35,368 bases of DNA from assembly GCA_005798285.1 (NCBI GenBank), contig SYKE01000052.1, positions 1 through 35,368 of the forward strand, read 5' to 3'. This DNA comes from Actinomycetota bacterium (GTDB taxonomy: Bacteria; Armatimonadota; SYMT01). Under the pieces are notes generated by a model. The model saw nothing but the letters and a program-made list of their open reading frames with translations, was not told where the DNA came from and searched no databases. Positions 2,734 through 26,438 of the stretch are shown here, piece by piece (positions within the stretch are counted from its first letter, which is position 1; each line of letters begins with the position of its first letter). A program made the translations under genes and the position numbers.

Positions 2734-4119
2734 CTACCTGGCCTGCGCCTTCAACACCTTGAAGCGGGCGCGAAGTTCGATTAGCCGATCCCGCCAGCCG
2801 GGATCGGCAATCAGGTTCGTTTCCTCACCCGGATCGCGGGCGAGGTCGAAGAGTTCTTCGTGCTGGAAGTCGGGCCAGTAGAGATACTTCACATCTCTCC
2901 GCACAAGCGCCTCGGACGAAGGGATGAACGCCACATCGCGAATGGTTGCGTGTTCGTAGAAGAACTCCGTGCGCCAGTCCGCCACGGGGCCATCGAGGTA
3001 GAGCGGTGCGAAGTTCCGACCTTGCATCCCCACGGGGGCGGTGAGCCCCGCCATCGCGAGAATCGTGGGAGCCAGATCTACATTCAGCACGAACTCGTCG
3101 CGCGTCATGCCGCGTCGGTCTTTCGGCAGGCGGGGATCCCACACCAACAGGGGCACGCGGATGGACTCTTCATAGGGGTACCACTTGTCCGCCAGACCGT
3201 GTTCCCCGTGAAAGTAGCCGTTGTCGGTGGTGAAGATCACCAATGTGTTATCGAGAATGCCCTGCTTCTGAAGCTCGTCGATCACACGTCCACACACGGT
3301 ATCCACTTCGGTGGCCAACCGATAGTAGTTCTTCATGTACTCCTGATAGCGGTCCGGTGTGTCGAAGCGCCACTTCCAGCGGTTGCGACCCTCATTCATG
3401 TCATTGGCGACAAAAGGGGGCAATTTGCGGAAGTGCTCATCGGAGCTGGTCTTCGGCGTAGGAATCCGAACGTCCCGGTAGAGCCGTTCGCTTTCGGGCT
3501 GCGGAAGGTACTGCTTCGGGTTTTGATCTTCGGCATGAGTGGCGAAAAAGGCGAGGTTGAGCAAGAACGGCTTACCTGAAGGGCGGGTCCGGAGAAACTC
3601 CATCGCGTCCTCTTCGTTCTTCCGCGTGACGTGGACGATCGTGCCATCGGCTCGCTTCACGTAATGCTTGCCGGCGTACGCCCTTGCAAAGTCGTACTTC
3701 TCAGCCGGGAAAGGGCCGTTGTGCCACTTCCCCACGTGGCCGACAAAATAGCCGGCTTCTCTCAGCATTCCCGGATACGTCTCCGCCCACGGCGTCTTGA
3801 AGCGCTCAAAGGCGCGGTTGCCATGGCGAGACATCCACTGACCGGTGAGCAGCGTGGCACGACTCACCCCGCAGATGGACGTGGTGACGCAGGCTCGGGT
3901 GAAGCGAACACCGCTGCGCGCCAACCGATCGAGGGTCGGGGTCTGCACCACCGGATTGCCGGCGCACGCCAGCGTGTCGTACCGCCAGTCGTCGGCATAC
4001 AACAGCACGATGTTCGGACGAGCCTGGGTACGAGCCGGAGACGCACCCAGGACCAGCCACCACGCCGTCAGGGCGATGCACACGGCACGCCCGGCCGAGC
4101 GAACTCGGTCTCCCCACAT
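2734..4119 (-). CDS. Secreted sulfatase (formylglycine type, arylsulfatase A family)
   Basis: It should hydrolyse sulfate esters, probably on glycans, outside the cytoplasm. From the ATG at 4119 there is a signal peptide (basic [10 protein letters not shown] then the hydrophobic core [15 protein letters not shown]). The metal motif [15 protein letters not shown] follows near the mature N-terminus. The active-site segment is [13 protein letters not shown], where the Cys would become formylglycine and the Arg and TG are canonical. The C-terminal metal motif [17 protein letters not shown] is textbook. The residue normally Pro in C-x-P-S-R is Val here. The upstream ATG at 4167 is in frame but has only a weak ribosome site, while 4119 has GGGGAG about 9 nt before it. 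It leads a transcript toward the ankyrin gene and diverges from the cyclase-peroxidase gene. Confidence 0.94.
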
Positions 4120-4295
4120 CTCCACAACTCCCCGGGCGACACCAGGCGGAAATGTGTCGCTCTCCATGCTTCTTGAAGATCATGGTAATGGGATCCTTGT
4201 TTCGAGACCCGGGATCGCCGTTCCCAGCTCGGGTCACCGTCGATTCGACCGTTGCGGTGGTGGCGCCCTCTCGGCGTTGATGCGCGGTGAAGTTC

Positions 4296-5993
4296 ATGTC
4301 ACAAAGCTCGAACACAGCTAAGATTGTCTTCGAAGGCGACCTTTCGGTAACCGCTCTCCCGGGAGAGACGGTGCTCCATGCCGCATTGGAGGCGGGAATC
4401 CCCCACGTTCACGCATGCGGCGGCAATGCTCGCTGCTCGACGTGTCGGGTGCTGATCCTATCAGGAGAGGCGAATCTCGGGCCCCGCGACGAATCCGAGT
4501 CGCGGCTGGCGAACAGGCGCGAACTGCCGGAAAACGTGCGACTGGCGTGCCGAGCCCGAGTGCTGGGCCCGGTAACGCTGCGGCGGCTCGTGAAGGACGA
4601 CTCCGACGCCGAACTCGCGCTTGGGCACGCTCCCGGGGGGCTGGGACGAGAAGCCAACGTGGCCGTGATGTTCACCGACCTTCGCGACTTCACTCCGTTC
4701 GTGGCGACATCTCTACCCTATGACGTGGTGCACCTGCTCAACCGCTACTTTCGAGCGACCGGTGATGCGGTGCTTCGGAACCACGGCCGCATCGACCTCT
4801 ACATCGGCGATGGAATGATGGCGCTCTTCGACGGCGGCGGCAAGGGGGATCAGGCGGCATGCCGCGATGCGGTGCGGGCCGGATTAGAGATGCTCGCCGC
4901 TCTGGATGAGCTGAATGTGTATTTGATGCGGCACTTCGGGAGCGCCTGGCGAATGGGCATCGGCGTCCACTTCGGAGCCGCAGTGCTGGGAGAGATCGGC
5001 CACCCCCGTCACACCCAGCGCACCGCCCTCGGCGATACGGTCAACATTGCCAGCCGCATCGAGAGCGCTTGCAAGGAAGCCCGCGCCTCGTTCCTAATTT
5101 CTGATTCGGTTTACAGCCGCGTGGCAGAAGAGTTTGAGCTGCGAGGACCGCTGGAACTGAGCCTCAAGGGCCAGGGCGGCCTCTTCGAGCTGCATGAGGT
5201 CCTGGCGGCAAAGTGCCGGGGAGACGCGTCGCTCGAGGAGCGCCTCCAGCGAGCTCTGCAGGAAGCGATTCCCCGCCACCTGGCGCCGGCGTTTCTTCGA
5301 CTCGCATTTCACGACGCGGCAGCGTTCGATCCCGCCACCGGCGCCGGGGGAGCAGACGGCTCCATCCGGCTCCCTGAGGAGCTCTCTCGCCCGGAAAACA
5401 CCGGCCTCGAAGAAGCGGTTCGGCGACTGACTCGAGTCCGGGAACTGGCGCCGGAAGTCTCCTTCGCCGACCTGATTGCCCTCGGGGGCGCGGCAGCGGT
5501 GGCGGCGTGCGGTGGGCCAATGATTCATCCGCCCCTGGGGCGAATCGATGCAGCGTCTCCCTCATCTGAGGGCCGACTACCCCCTGACGACAGCGGAGCG
5601 GACGGTCTCAAACGCCGCTTCCGGCAGATGGGGCTTCACACCCGGGACCTGGTGGCGCTTTCGGGCGCCCACACCCTGGGACGGGCCGCCGGCAAACCGT
5701 TCACCGAAGATCTCTTCAGCTTTTCGAACAACTACTATCGGGCGCTGATGGCGGGCCCGCCGCTTTCCGACCCCCTGCTTCCGACCGACCGCGTACTGGT
5801 GGAGGATCCGGACTGCCGTGCCTGGGTGGAGTTGTACGCACGCGACGAAGCGGCGTTTCACCACGACTTCGCGGAAGCCTATCTTCGACTGACCAGCGTC
5901 GGCCAGAACGGAATGCCTCGACAGGCTACGGGCCCGACTTCAGAGCCTGACAGCGATCCAGGAAGCCGTAGCCGCAGAAGTCCGGATCCTTGA
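4296..5993 (+). CDS. Three-domain fusion: [2Fe-2S] ferredoxin - class III nucleotide cyclase - class I (ascorbate peroxidase-like) haem peroxidase
   Basis: Numbering is from ATG 4296; an in-frame GTG lies at 4287. Residues about 8-100 form a ferredoxin with cluster ligands Cys41, 47, 50 and 85 (C-x5-C-x2-C spacing, adrenodoxin-like). Residues about 120-285 are a class III cyclase: metal Asp128 (MFTDLRDFT) and Asp172 (YIGDGMMALF), transition-state Asn250 and Arg254 (GDTVNIASR), and Thr243 as in class IIIb. The usual substrate Lys is Leu168. Residues about 315-545 are a plant-type class I peroxidase: distal Arg335, Phe338 and His339 (RLAFHD), GGADGSIRLPEELS, proximal His459 (VALSGAHTLGRA) and its partner Asp498 (LPTDRVLVEDP). 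Trp is replaced by Phe at both the distal (338) and proximal (469) positions. There is no signal peptide, so it is probably cytosolic. Ferredoxin-cyclase pairs are common; the peroxidase makes this unusual. The 3' end overlaps the convergent gene by 68 nt. Confidence 0.93.
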   Translation: MSQSSNTAKIVFEGDLSVTALPGETVLHAALEAGIPHVHACGGNARCSTCRVLILSGEANLGPRDESESRLANRRELPENVRLACRARVLGPVTLRRLVKDDSDAELALGHAPGGLGREANVAVMFTDLRDFTPFVATSLPYDVVHLLNRYFRATGDAVLRNHGRIDLYIGDGMMALFDGGGKGDQAACRDAVRAGLEMLAALDELNVYLMRHFGSAWRMGIGVHFGAAVLGEIGHPRHTQRTALGDTVNIASRIESACKEARASFLISDSVYSRVAEEFELRGPLELSLKGQGGLFELHEVLAAKCRGDASLEERLQRALQEAIPRHLAPAFLRLAFHDAAAFDPATGAGGADGSIRLPEELSRPENTGLEEAVRRLTRVRELAPEVSFADLIALGGAAAVAACGGPMIHPPLGRIDAASPSSEGRLPPDDSGADGLKRRFRQMGLHTRDLVALSGAHTLGRAAGKPFTEDLFSFSNNYYRALMAGPPLSDPLLPTDRVLVEDPDCRAWVELYARDEAAFHHDFAEAYLRLTSVGQNGMPRQATGPTSEPDSDPGSRSRRSPDP

Positions 5994-22520: not shown

Positions 22521-23801
22521 GTGGCGAGGAACCGTCAAACCGTGCTCTCCAATCGGAACCCGTTGCCCGCTGTCGTCGCCCGGCTGGGCGTGGTGCTTTT
22601 CACGGCGATCCTGCTCGTGCTGTTGTGGGGGGTGAACGCACGCTATCTGGGTCTCTGGTGGGTTCACCTGGTCCCGGTCGGACGTCTTGCGGCGTATGGA
22701 CGAACGCTGGAAGACCCGGACCAACTCGAGACTGCTGCGCGACGACTGTTCTTCGCGGGCCGCGCGGAGGAAGCGTACGCGCTGCTCAAACCGCGGGAGA
22801 GTCGCTGGGCCAACCGGTCGGAGTTCCAGTATCTGATCGGTCGGGTTGCGGATGCCGCCGGGCACCCTCTCGAGGGCGCGGTGCACCTTCGCTCTGCAGC
22901 CGATCAGCGCACGGATCACGAGACACTCTACCGACTCGCCGCTGTTCTCATCCGGATCGGCGAAACGGGCGAAGCGCGGGAACGCCTGGAGCGCGTCACT
23001 CGGATTGTCTGGCGACGGCAGGATGCCTGGCTCGATCTCATGCAGCTTCACGTCGAGGAAGATCGGCCCGGGGAAGCGATCCAGACGATGATCTGGATCA
23101 CCGACGCGGAATCGATTCCTCGCGGTCTGGCGCTCAAGGCGCGGGCACTCGCGGCGACCGGCCAGGCAAGGGAGGCTCTGGAGCTGGCTCGCACTTGCTG
23201 GGAGAACCCGGCAACGCCGGAAGATCAACGGCCGCACCTTGCCGCGATCCTGGCTTCCGGCTCGGATCCGAAAGTGCTGAATCCGGCGGTACAACGTCTC
23301 CTCACGGAAGGCGACCGGGCGCCCCACGAGCTCTGGCTCCGGGAGGCCGGGCGAGGTTTGCTGAAGCTCAGGCGGCCGAAGGACGCCCTCTCAGCGCTCT
23401 GCCGTCATCTGCGTGCGGCACCCCTGGACCAGGTTGGGTACCAGCTCCTCGCCGAGGCCGCTTTAACCGCAGAACTTGCGTCCGACGCCCGCCGCCTCCG
23501 GGGCCAGGCGAAGCAGCTTCTCGCTCGTTCCCACGCTCTCGACGCGGCAACCGAGAGCTTCCGAAAGAGTCGTGTTAAGGGGGAAGCGCATTACGTTCTT
23601 GCACGGAAGTGCCGAGACCTGGGGCTCCTCGACTGGGCCGAACGCGAGGCCGCAGCCGCATTGACCCTTCGGCCGGACCATCTCGGGGCTCAGCGGCTGA
23701 AGAACGAGTTGACCCATGGCTCGGAAACTGCCACCGGACGGACCCCGGCGCTCCCAACCGGTTGCTGCGGATCGGGAGCGCCCGGCGTGCCTCAGGGGTA
23801 G
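22521..23801 (+). CDS. Membrane-anchored tetratricopeptide-repeat protein
   Basis: About 426 residues from GTG 22521 (GTG 22491 is an alternative; neither has a strong ribosome site). One transmembrane helix lies near the N-terminus (VVARLGVVLFTAILLVLLWG). The remainder is a string of TPR-like helical pairs, seen in LETAARRLFFAGRAEEAYALL, EFQYLIGRVADAAGHPLEGAVHL, LYRLAAVLIRIGETGEARERL, ALKARALAATGQAREALELA and the last unit AHYVLARKCRDLGLLDWAEREA. Such proteins scaffold complexes at the membrane. It is divergent from xylB, with 170 nt between, and its stop overlaps by 10 nt the stop of the convergent selenoprotein gene. Confidence 0.85.
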   Translation: MARNRQTVLSNRNPLPAVVARLGVVLFTAILLVLLWGVNARYLGLWWVHLVPVGRLAAYGRTLEDPDQLETAARRLFFAGRAEEAYALLKPRESRWANRSEFQYLIGRVADAAGHPLEGAVHLRSAADQRTDHETLYRLAAVLIRIGETGEARERLERVTRIVWRRQDAWLDLMQLHVEEDRPGEAIQTMIWITDAESIPRGLALKARALAATGQAREALELARTCWENPATPEDQRPHLAAILASGSDPKVLNPAVQRLLTEGDRAPHELWLREAGRGLLKLRRPKDALSALCRHLRAAPLDQVGYQLLAEAALTAELASDARRLRGQAKQLLARSHALDAATESFRKSRVKGEAHYVLARKCRDLGLLDWAEREAAAALTLRPDHLGAQRLKNELTHGSETATGRTPALPTGCCGSGAPGVPQG

Positions 23802-25033
23802 AGCTTCGCGAGGAGATCGGCGACCTGGGAAACAACGAAGCCGCGCGGTCCCATCTCTCCCACGTGGAGCAACTTCCCGTCCACTCCCACCACGTAGAGC
23901 CGGTCGGGCCAGCCGCTGTACATGCGCTCCACGACATCGTCGAGGGTGTCGACCACCGCGGGGAACTTGATGCCGAGGGTCTTCACACAGGATCCCGCCA
24001 CCAACTGGCGATCCTTCAGCGACTTGGGATCCTCAAACAGGATCTGATCTCGAATGTTGGCCTGAACCTGCCATCCATCGGTGGGATGGGCCTCTCGGAT
24101 GTAGACCAACCGGAACTCCACCCGATCTTTGTACTTCGCGTAAAGCGCATTGAGCGCGCCCACCTGGGCGCGGAACGGCGGTCAGGTGACCGAGCCGAAG
24201 ACGAGCACCACCGGTTTCTTGTCGCGGAAACTCGCGAGCTGGAAGGTGTTCTTTCCGTCGAGGTCAGCCAGCACGAAGTCGGGCGCCACCTCTCCTGCTT
24301 TGAGGCGACCCGCCTGCGGGCGCCGGGCCCCGGCCGGAACCTCGATCGGGAGCTGGAATGGAGCGCCCTGCAGGGTGACGAAGAGCCGACGCTGATCTTC
24401 GGTGTAGACCTCGGCGATTCGACGGTCCTGCTCCATTCGAGCTTCCGGGCTTCGCGGCGCCATTCCGGGCCGATCCGGCTGGGCCACCGCCTTCAGGCGA
24501 GAGAGCTGATCGCCGGAGAGCATCAGCCGCGAGGCGATGTCCGGCCGGGTGGCGGCGGCCCGCAGCCCATCACGACGCAGCAGGATCTCGGTGAGCCGAG
24601 CCGACTCGCCATCCTTCAATAGAGCGCCGAGCAGCTTCTCTCCCTCGTCGCGAAAGGCGAGGAGCCGCGGCATCCGCTTCTCCGGCGGTCCGTTTCGAAG
24701 GCTGCTTACTAGCTCTCCCAGCAGGGCGGAGCGCTTCATCCTCAGTTCGAGGATCGATTTTCGAACCTCGGGGCTGAGTTTGAGCTCCTCCTGCACTTCC
24801 GGCACGGCGGCAAGCGAGAGCTTGCCTTCCGCCTCGCGCCCGAGAGCGGCCGGAACACCGGCAGGATTCTGAGCCAGAACACCCGCCGCCACCGAGAACG
24901 CGAGCACCGTGGAGGCCAGGATCGGCGCCACCCTGCCCGCAGTTGATATCGAATTGAACACCCTACCCCGTCCCCTCACCGGCGCCGCAGAACGCCGGAT
25001 CGCACGTCGGAGCTCACTCGTACCGAACGGCAT
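23792..25033 (-). CDS. Deiodinase-like selenoprotein (in-frame UGA = selenocysteine) with N-terminal helical LTxxQ-type domain
   Basis: Read through the UGA at 24184-24182, one 413-residue protein results (from ATG 25033; GTG 24961 is an alternative start). Residues about 30-55 are a signal peptide (VAPILASTVLAFSVAAGVLA). Residues about 65-215 are helical, resembling the Spy/LTxxQ-like domains of Planctomycetes (VQEELKLSPEVRKSILELRM; SRLMLSGDQLSRLKAV). Residues about 235-413 are a thioredoxin-fold domain of the type I iodothyronine deiodinase family: APDFVLADLDGKN, then VVLVFGSVT-U284-PPFRAQ, VYIREAHPTDGW with the conserved His, and FPAVVDTLDDVVERMYSGWPDRLYVVG. Human deiodinase has FGSCT-U-PSF and EEAHASDGW at these places. 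A SECIS-like hairpin follows the UGA. A bacterial protein is more likely a periplasmic thiol/selenol oxidoreductase than a hormone deiodinase. It starts within the end of the permease gene (20-nt overlap). Confidence 0.9.
24155..24172 (-). promoter_or_regulatory. Bacterial SECIS-like hairpin directing selenocysteine insertion
   Basis: In the mRNA (minus strand), nine nt after the UGA, CGCGCCC (24172-24166), loop AGGU (24165-24162) and GGGCGCG (24161-24155) form a perfect 7-bp stem; the loop-closing A-U could add an eighth pair. The loop begins 16 nt after the UGA and contains GGU. This meets the published bacterial SECIS consensus: a loop 16-37 nt from the UGA with a G among its first two bases. 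SelB would bind here. The element is coding as well (codons for Arg-Ala-Gln-Val-Gly-Ala). Confidence 0.75.
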
Positions 25034-26261
25034 CGATCGGATCTTTCCTCGCGGCAGACATTGCCGGAGAGACCCCGGAGAGAACCCCCACCAGAACGCA
25101 GACCGTGAACCCCAATCCCACCGACCACCCCGTGATGATCGGTTGAAGGGGGAGCCAGATCACGACTACCTTACAGAATACGAAAGCCAGCCCGATTCCG
25201 GCGGCGCCGCCGAGCAAAGAAAGCGCGATCGCCTCGAACAAAAACTGGATAAAGATGTCTGAACGCCGGGCGCCAACCGTTTTCCGGATTCCGATCTCGT
25301 GGGTTCGCTCCGTCACTGTCACCAACATTACATTCATGATGCCGATCCCTCCAACCACTAGCGAGATGCTCGTGATCCCGATCAGCAGGGCGCTGAGCAG
25401 CGTGAACACCTTGTAAAACATCGCCAGCAGCTCTTTTGCACGCACCACGCTGAAATCGTCGAGCCCTCGATGGCGTGCCAGCAGCGTCTGCTTGACCCGT
25501 TCGGTCGCGAGTTCCGGGTCGGCGCCGGGGCGGTACTCCAGAAAAATCCGGTGGATTTGCTGAGAGCCCGTCACGTTTCTCAGAAACGGCAGCGGCATGT
25601 AGACGATCGCATCCAGTTCCTCGCCCCCGAGCATGCCGCTGCCGATGCTCCGTTCGGACAGGGTCCCCATCACGCGGAGCGGAATGCCGTTCACGGTGAG
25701 AGTCTTGCCGAGGGGATCCTCTCCCTCGAAGAGATCTTTCCGAATCCCGTTCCCGATGACGCACACGGGCTGTTCCAGTTCCGCGGCGCCGAAGAAGCGC
25801 CCCGTCTGGATCTCCAGGCGGCGAATCTGTTCAAACTCGGGGTGAATCCCGATGGGGATGCAGATGCCCGCCGGCGTCTGGTCGCGAAAGACGCCGCCCA
25901 CCACAAAGACCAGCGGCGACAATCGTCGGATCTCCGGCAGCCCCGAGAGCGCCTTCACATCGCCGTCCGAGAGGTTGCTCAGACCGACGCCTGCGAGCGG
26001 GTTGAAGTTCTTCTGGCCCTGGAGCTTTCCAGGCATCACCACGGCCACATTCGGACCGAGCTGATCGATCTGGGCGGTGATTTCCTGCTGTGCTCCGGCG
26101 CCGAACGCCACGAGAACGATCACGGCCGCCACTCCGATGACCACTCCCAGCACGGTGAGGCCGGTGCGGAGGCGATTCGAGCGCATGCTGGTCCACGCGG
26201 CTTCCAGTCCCGCCGCCGCCGCGACTCCCCAGCCCCGCCGCACGTTCGCTCCGCGATCCAT
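25014..26261 (-). CDS. MacB-type ABC transporter permease
   Basis: 415 residues, with the MacB/FtsX architecture: an N-terminal membrane helix (TGLTVLGVVIGVAAVIVLVAFG) with the conserved RSNRLRTGLT lead-in, a large periplasmic domain (about residues 65-280, MacB_PCD type, including GSGMLGGEELDAIVYMPL), and three C-terminal helices (LLSALLIGITSISLVVGGIGIMN; LSLLGGAAGIGLAFVF; GLGFTVCVLVGVLSGVSPA). The TERTHEIGIRKTVGARRSDI motif between them is diagnostic. Such permeases, with an ATPase and a periplasmic adaptor, export peptides, lipoproteins or drugs by mechanotransmission. No ATPase or adaptor gene is in the window. The open frame runs upstream to 27920 antisense to ispG, but ATG 26261 is the sensible start. 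The selenoprotein start overlaps its end by 20 nt, which suggests coupling. Confidence 0.93.
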   Translation of the reverse strand: MDRGANVRRGWGVAAAAGLEAAWTSMRSNRLRTGLTVLGVVIGVAAVIVLVAFGAGAQQEITAQIDQLGPNVAVVMPGKLQGQKNFNPLAGVGLSNLSDGDVKALSGLPEIRRLSPLVFVVGGVFRDQTPAGICIPIGIHPEFEQIRRLEIQTGRFFGAAELEQPVCVIGNGIRKDLFEGEDPLGKTLTVNGIPLRVMGTLSERSIGSGMLGGEELDAIVYMPLPFLRNVTGSQQIHRIFLEYRPGADPELATERVKQTLLARHRGLDDFSVVRAKELLAMFYKVFTLLSALLIGITSISLVVGGIGIMNVMLVTVTERTHEIGIRKTVGARRSDIFIQFLFEAIALSLLGGAAGIGLAFVFCKVVVIWLPLQPIITGWSVGLGFTVCVLVGVLSGVSPAMSAARKDPIDAVRYE

Positions 26262-26438
26262 ACCCTGCGCCTCGTTCAACACCCTGCGTTCACAACAGCC
26301 AACCCCAAAGGGGACGACCCGGCCCCATGTCCCTAGCATTGTCCGCCGTGCGGACCAACGACATGGCGGGATAGCACACAATTTGACGGTTGCCGGCTCG
26401 CTCTTCACCCCACACCCCGGGGTGGGGCGCCGCCGCGC

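Follow-up and report, generated by a model that had tools for sequence, protein, structure and literature searches.

A predicted deiodinase-like selenoprotein with an LTXXQ-like front domain in an Armatimonadota genome

Deiodinase-like selenoproteins of bacteria entered the literature in 2005, with a report of four unique Sargasso sequences (PMC1088965). A 2008 Global Ocean Sampling (GOS) survey counted 22 selenocysteine (Sec) and 21 Cys forms, as we read the table columns, and its table lists no motif for the family (PMC2398784), for which reason the UxxC motif given in the consulted sections of two reviews (PMC9312934, PMC13188914) was not treated as defining. A fusion of a deiodinase-like protein with an EF-hand was described from marine data in 2021 (PMC9402790). 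Here we analyse a minus-strand gene carrying an in-frame UGA on contig SYKE01000052.1 (assembly GCA_005798285.1, recorded as Actinomycetota bacterium and placed by GTDB in Armatimonadota, SYMT01), of which positions 1 to 35,368, hereafter the window, were studied. Compared by description only, and as far as the accessible parts of those reports go, the Sargasso/GOS family resembles the predicted window protein in its T4_deiodinase domain, catalytic Sec, bacterial Sec insertion sequence (SECIS) and the existence of Cys forms, but it comes from marine reads and was described without such a front domain (PMC1088965, PMC2398784).

Two open reading frames (ORFs), 25033-24182 (283 amino acids) and 24163-23792 (123 amino acids), share one minus-strand frame and are separated by a UGA (24184-24182) followed by the six codons of PPFRAQ, exactly as an initial annotation of the sequence had placed them. 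The standard code splits the gene in two, and read-through supplies its probable product, a protein of 413 amino acids with Sec at position 284, the gene terminating at a second UGA. When the UGAs of the window were filtered for at least 60 open codons and coding-like GC content by codon position on both flanks (thresholds set by us), two passed: this one and another at 1157 on the plus strand, which sits at the end of another ORF. The ATG first drawn (25033) overlaps the 3' end of the upstream permease gene, and the GTG at 24961 is the likelier start, as it would give a typical signal peptide when judged by eye. The features of the locus are as follows.

23792..25033, minus strand: selenoprotein gene as first drawn (413 amino acids, Sec284, terminal UGA).
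23792..24961, minus strand: likelier extent of the gene, from the GTG at 24961 behind the purine-rich GAGGGGACGGGGTAG (sequence and inference).
24872..24961, minus strand: signal peptide (probable, by eye) spanning residues 25-54, with cleavage after VLA.
24368..24832, minus strand: helical LTXXQ-like domain, residues ~68-222 (homology to stand-alone proteins of the phylum; modelled helices).
23801..24310, minus strand: deiodinase-like thioredoxin-fold domain, residues 242-411 (Pfam, sequence, model and structure comparison).
24182..24184, minus strand: UGA codon of the predicted catalytic Sec284 in FGSVT-U-PPFR (reading frame and conservation in relatives).
24155..24172, minus strand: bacterial-type SECIS hairpin with a 7-bp stem CGCGCCC/GGGCGCG and loop AGGU, the loop lying 16 nt after the UGA (folding analyses).
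24071..24091, minus strand: AHPTDGW, matching the deiodinase-family loop motif AHxxDGW (alignment; motif as given in the part of PMC7506546 consulted).
23987..23989, minus strand: Cys349, sole cysteine and candidate resolving residue (alignment and Cys count).

The resemblance to deiodinases claimed at the outset is borne out by profile search. The joined protein matched Pfam T4_deiodinase with 100.4 bits (E 1.3e-28, residues 242-411; curated cut-off 27), while the C-terminal piece alone reached 60.6 bits and the N-terminal piece gave no match at E 1, so that the match passes through the UGA. By sequence, the closest solved structures were those of mouse Dio3 (4tr3, E 3.1e-21) and Dio2 (9h48, E 2.1e-14). 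A structure model from the single sequence was poor (mean predicted local distance difference test, pLDDT, 37.7); the model built from the window protein and 50 related loci reached a pLDDT of 89-98 per ten-residue block from residue 241 onward, its front part being all-helical with low to middling confidence. Foldseek placed Dio3 and Dio2 at the top for this model and ResA next. The thioredoxin fold is common to ResA/TlpA and AhpC-type proteins, from which the window protein differs by the lack of a UxxC/CxxC pair and the presence of the deiodinase loop. A deiodinase-like fold and active site can be assigned with very little doubt.

Among 291 Armatimonadota genomes, 24 contained T4_deiodinase matches, 27 in all. 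The catalytic codon was UGA in 21 of them (19 genomes) and Cys in six, of which five were plain Cys forms and one, the window genome's own paralogue, had Cys there and a UGA elsewhere. The gene, its UGA and its architecture are retained in a sister genome, a family neighbour, whose protein is 61% identical over residues 197-411 and forms a clade with the window protein with support 100/100. Every one of the 19 genomes that carry a UGA form had a selA match (E 1e-60 or better), and none of the five restricted to the Cys form did, against a background of 141/291 (p = 5e-7 and 2e-5, respectively, uncorrected for kinship). A wider scan of the named genome collection was performed with a query alignment starting after the Sec codon, so that this codon was absent from the query. 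It yielded at least 590 candidate stretches and at least 483 relatives, of which the best 80 were kept; a first scan of genome contigs with the single window protein as query had returned no relative, nor did a scan of viral contigs. UGA occupied the catalytic codon in all 80 kept loci, as read by motif search in 77 and by hand in L097, L116 and L146 (these three standing outside the SECIS sets and trees); the 80 being the nearest relatives, this figure is uninformative on the share of Cys in the whole family. They were mostly from Acidobacteriota, and also from Planctomycetota, Armatimonadota, Verrucomicrobia, Lentisphaerae, Poribacteria, Chloroflexi, Deltaproteobacteria and one Actinomycetes. 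Both Sec and Cys had been suggested as residues to look for at position 284 in homologues: the nearest relatives carry UGA, and Cys forms occur elsewhere. For a fragmented draft assembly one might suppose that the UGA is a Cys or Trp codon misread in sequencing or assembly, but the identical codon is present in separate assemblies from nine phyla (as labelled in the records) and in the sister genome; because of this conservation an error is hardly credible.

Further genes were noted. The paralogue in the window genome (contig 240, 19029-19556, minus strand; L041, L068) reads FGSCTCPRF, with Cys as the catalytic residue, and carries a heavy-metal-associated domain at its front; its UGA falls outside the catalytic codon (QRY-UGA-DKA) and may stem from decay, from an error or from another cause. 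In five Armatimonadota genomes that lack a selA match (L062-L066), a Cys-type deiodinase-like domain, FG-S/C-x-x-C-P-V, is joined to a C-terminal half that looks esterase-like by eye. Three consecutive Sec-type deiodinase-like genes lie on contig 134 of genome G160 (3160-4939; L046, L067, L069), the first with UGPF in place of UPPF. In another Armatimonadota genome (G018, contig 617), locus L029 is TlpA-like with FFSTT-UGA-PACN and is probably a UxxC selenoprotein.

The initial annotation had named a genome devoid of Sec machinery as the finding that would speak against its proposal; the window genome, a draft of 326 contigs that is 69% complete, encodes the whole set. An Rfam search identified a tRNA-Sec over the cut-off (64.8 bits), and selA (567 bits), selB (366 bits, contig 239) and selD (356 bits) were all found. 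The SelD protein has an in-frame UGA of its own in GG-U-ASK, which we take to be its catalytic position, and is for this reason probably a selenoprotein as well. Rfam also gave six further tRNA-Sec matches below the cut-off in this genome; such signals were seen in 14 of 14 control genomes, over the cut-off in five, and as sub-cut-off matches are common in control genomes too, only the over-cut-off match was used. Rfam and ARAGORN found nothing in the window alone. A genome-wide reassignment of UGA (code 4 or 25) would account for an in-frame UGA and for nothing further; both the selenoprotein gene and the preceding permease gene terminate in UGA, and tRNA-Sec and SelB are present, which leaves reassignment with next to no likelihood. 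As a separate observation, the tRNA-Sec, selD and selA are grouped on contig 20 (9315-11882, minus strand).

Folding downstream of the UGA was analysed in 79 sequences, namely those of the 77 loci together with the window and sister genes. A stretch of 45 bases beginning at the UGA was more stable than synonymous shuffles (mean z -1.02, standard error 0.11), with the peak at the UGA itself; overlapping fold starts at -15 and +15 gave -0.81 and -0.52, and starts at least 30 bases away on either side gave -0.26 to +0.14. SECIS-like hairpins were defined by at least 4 pairs and by a loop of 3-14 nt that lies 16-37 nt from the UGA and has a G among its first two bases, the numeric limits being those of the bSECISearch literature. 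Such hairpins were detected in 58 of the 79 sequences, compared with a mean of 21.4 (standard deviation 3.5, highest 30) in 30 rounds of synonymous shuffling. Across lineages three stem pairs exchange G-C for C-G, and the mean number of stem pairs is 5.86 versus 4.19 after permuting one arm; part of this coupling may reflect coding (QVG vs EVP). At the equivalent place, five Cys-type genes gave z values of -1.48, 0.48, 0.74, -0.23 and -0.45. A G is found in the apical loop of the window hairpin and of the hairpins counted in the set, and bacterial SECIS elements are described, in the part of the source seen, as lying behind the UGA with a small G-containing loop (PMC1088965).

An opposite view is that the UGA is a real stop and that the gene is decayed or split, its pieces being separate or dead. 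The two ORFs obtained with the standard code and the draft state of the 326-contig genome would fit this view, which is highly improbable given the conserved UGA in the sister genome and the 80 loci, the full machinery, the SECIS signal and the coding-like GC on both sides of the codon. Stop codon or pseudogene, sequencing error and code change were accordingly rejected on the strength of UGA conservation, machinery, SECIS and terminal UGAs. UGA 24184-24182 almost certainly encodes Sec, the full-length product being a predicted Sec protein; its position at the catalytic residue, as first proposed, agrees with a domain match that spans it and with its retention among relatives.

Active-site residues were numbered as in mouse Dio3 through a sequence alignment that agrees with the published numbers. 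The alignment comprised 51 rows, the window protein and 50 of the 80 loci; L143, partly masked, was excluded here and kept in the trees. Ser167, Tyr197, Glu200, Ala201, His202, Arg260, Gly276 and Pro277 were kept in all 51 rows, Thr169 in 50 and Trp207 in 46. Most of these residues form the network around Sec and the AHxxDGW loop in the sections of the Dio3 literature consulted (PMC7506546, PMC11592359). Like animal Dio1-3 (4tr3, 9h48), the window protein has the fold, Sec-Pro-Pro-Phe, the Ser-x-Thr-Sec motif with Tyr197, Glu200 and His202, and the AHxxDGW loop. In contrast, the position of Dio3 Arg275 is taken by Met394 (Pro in 29/51) and that of His219 by Pro336 (Pro in 33/51, His in 5/51), while Tyr257 is replaced by Trp in the window protein and in 45/51 rows. 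Arg275, which is Lys in Dio2, is held to bind the hormone carboxylate, according to the portions of these papers available (PMC7506546, PMC11592359). Since the hormone-binding residues are not kept, 'deiodinase' denotes here the fold and the active site, not the reaction, and the protein is best described, from its sequence, as a deiodinase-like redox selenoenzyme rather than a shown deiodinase. Membership among true iodothyronine deiodinases was not accepted, because two hormone-binding positions (Arg275, His219) are not kept.

The UxxC motif is absent from the window protein, which has UPPF; 79 of the 80 loci have UPPF and one UPQF, so that position +3 is Phe throughout, in contrast with the UxxC of the reviews, as far as their text was available (PMC9312934, PMC13188914). 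According to the part of PMC9141512 seen, a proximal Cys precedes Sec by two residues in human Dio1 and Dio3, and a distal Cys follows Sec at 69-76 residues in each of the three human deiodinases. In the window protein Cys349 lies 65 residues after Sec, in the model helix 339-353, and is not aligned with Dio3 Cys239 in the sequence alignment. When Cys within one column was counted as distal, 89 of 94 rows had a distal Cys only, four a proximal Cys only (FGSCTUPPFR), one had neither and none had both; one record enters twice (AL058 = L148), and L146, whose contig begins at the Sec codon, and L061, near-identical to L060, were excluded. We read this pattern as a probable need for one partner Cys. 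The window protein further differs from Dio1-3 by the absence of a proximal Cys, by a bacterial SECIS inside the gene and by being probably exported, as judged by eye, and not membrane-anchored. Certain Acidobacteriota loci (e.g. L080, L109) show, by eye, an N-terminal membrane-helix-like stretch and a shared FPxxxLW-type linker, recalling the anchored animal layout.

The signal peptide and LTxxQ-like helical domain proposed initially were upheld in part. A signal peptide is probable by eye, and is better begun at the GTG. The helical domain is linked to the LTXXQ family through intermediates: it matched a stand-alone Armatimonadota protein (L017) at E 1.7e-16 in a whole-genome search and stand-alone proteins of the phylum with a best E of 5.5e-18 (phmmer, set of 116 sequences), and the three relatives tested (L017, L019, L021) out of 11 found all match Pfam LTXXQ (PF07813) with 31.9-36.4 bits (cut-off 24.3). 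No direct hidden Markov model match of the window protein to PF07813 was obtained, and a search of its own genome for LTXXQ was also negative. The window domain is therefore homologous to stand-alone Armatimonadota proteins of this family, which we take to be Spy/CpxP-like, but is fused to a selenoenzyme and lies below profile detection. The fusion was seen in two genomes, that of the window and its sister, and was not found in the 77 scan loci or in the other Armatimonadota T4_deiodinase matches (phmmer, E 0.01). From the N-terminus, export of the protein is quite likely.

We propose, with a probability of about 0.62, that the gene encodes an exported deiodinase-like Sec redox enzyme working through a Sec-Cys349 cycle. 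Sec coding, machinery, SECIS, fold, conserved network and the single partner Cys of this proposal are supported by computation. SelB and Sec-tRNA would read UGA 24184-24182 as Sec owing to the adjacent hairpin, the terminal UGA acting as stop, and the mature product, with its helical LTXXQ-like front and deiodinase-like thioredoxin-fold domain, would reside outside the cytoplasm. There, the selenolate of Sec284 would be held in place by the Ser-Thr-Tyr-Glu-His network and would attack a soft electrophile, which we infer to be either a peroxide or a halogen carried by a small organic compound. Oxidised Se may then form a selenenyl sulfide with Cys349, from which an external thiol would regenerate it; the front domain might bind the substrate, attach to the cell surface or hold a client protein. 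The Sec-Cys349 cycle is slightly favoured over its absence; general peroxide/thiol redox chemistry is somewhat more probable again, and dehalogenation is doubtful as the chemistry. A redox role was considered possible by the first describers of the family, in the passages seen (PMC1088965).

The protein might instead catalyse genuine reductive dehalogenation, acting at the outer face as a deiodinase or debrominase on small aromatic halides, with the animal Sec chemistry applied to another substrate. The kept network and AHxxDGW loop, UPPF instead of a UxxC pair, and Dio3 and Dio2 as closest solved relatives ahead of ResA are compatible with it, but Dio3 Arg275, His219 and Tyr257 are replaced (by Met, Pro and Trp), no recurring neighbour suggests halides, and the first describers, as far as their text was consulted, expected another function (PMC1088965). 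We consider this principal alternative unlikely.

Several observations weigh against the exported Sec-Cys349 redox enzyme proposed above. Evidence for export is an N-terminus read by eye, and a DsbD-type membrane reductase (DsbD_TM) was not found in the window genome, which is 69% complete. The four proximal-Cys rows form one clade (support 94/88), so that the distal/proximal pattern may correspond to a single evolutionary switch. On its own, the window hairpin does not stand out when 71 nt are shuffled without constraint (z -0.40) and has moderate values with synonymous shuffles (-1.67 and -1.63); 21 of the 79 sequences have no hairpin in the lowest-energy fold, and one of the five Cys-type genes folds well at the same place (z -1.48). 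It is the set as a whole, made up of related sequences, that gives the SECIS signal its strength. In 50 genomes of the wider-scan loci, hand-picked from the 80 and without the six Armatimonadota loci, selB was over the cut-off in 44, a count that has no background rate for those phyla; of the other six, two had no match at E 1e-30 and four had weaker matches only. Finally, when ORFs within 4 kb were clustered, no operon common to the 77 loci was found. The commonest neighbour family, TonB/carboxypeptidase-like by eye, occurs in 8 of the 77 loci, and the neighbourhood therefore gives no pointer to a substrate; the three clusters with the highest numbers of loci resemble antisense and split pieces of the deiodinase-like gene itself.

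A broader and rather speculative view, to which we attach little weight, is that a widespread bacterial UPPF Sec family performs reductive dehalogenation or related Se-halogen/peroxide chemistry outside the cytoplasm with one partner Cys, shifted in one lineage from distal (+65) to proximal (-2, as in mammalian Dio1), that animal deiodinases arose from this bacterial stock, and that an LTXXQ-like domain for binding substrate or client has been added in the window protein. When the window genome's paralogue is included in the tree, the animal deiodinases group with it through long branches, a placement that the program flagged; in a 51-row tree from which paralogue and outgroup were removed, a long branch carries them alone. 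The trees omit L061, and the large tree omits six loci repeating identical contigs.

With respect to published work, the initial annotation was right that deiodinase-like selenoproteins were known from metagenomic surveys (PMC1088965, in the part seen), and its view that the helical-plus-deiodinase architecture is uncharacterised agrees with our search, in which no description was found in the open-licence literature. In full texts of that literature, LTXXQ and selenoprotein were not found together, nor were Armatimonadota with selenocysteine, or selenoprotein with Acidobacteria and deiodinase, all of which is weak evidence of absence; Armatimonadetes and selenoprotein co-occur there only in work on Planctomycetes. 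One Acidobacteriota genome is credited with three known selenoprotein genes in a paper whose main text, as available, does not contain 'deiodinase' (PMC12013277). The EF-hand fusion, in the part of its report seen, is likewise a bacterial deiodinase-like selenoprotein with an extra domain, the partner in the window being LTXXQ-like and not an EF-hand (PMC9402790). Features that look new are the joining of an LTXXQ-like domain to a deiodinase-like one, a UPPF site of animal type that lacks UxxC, and the occurrence of a distal or a proximal partner Cys, never both. Many genomes of Acidobacteriota, Planctomycetota and Armatimonadota encode animal-type Sec deiodinase homologues, which takes the family past the original marine reads, and this bacterial set makes testable which reaction a deiodinase active site performs without thyroid hormone, and which Cys resolves the oxidised Sec.

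Some minor observations were also made. Locus L089 carries, by eye, an EF-hand-like front domain on a Sec deiodinase-like protein, resembling the published fusion as far as its description was accessible (PMC9402790). The permease gene upstream of the selenoprotein gene is of the MacB/FtsX type (25017-26276, minus strand); its end, itself a UGA, overlaps the ATG first drawn. The sister gene is not preceded by it and has a divergent neighbour on that side. Elsewhere in the window, a 568-residue ORF (4287-5993, plus strand) combines 2Fe-2S ferredoxin, adenylate/guanylate cyclase and haem peroxidase domains, with Pfam scores of 44.9, 63.7 and 145.1 bits, respectively.

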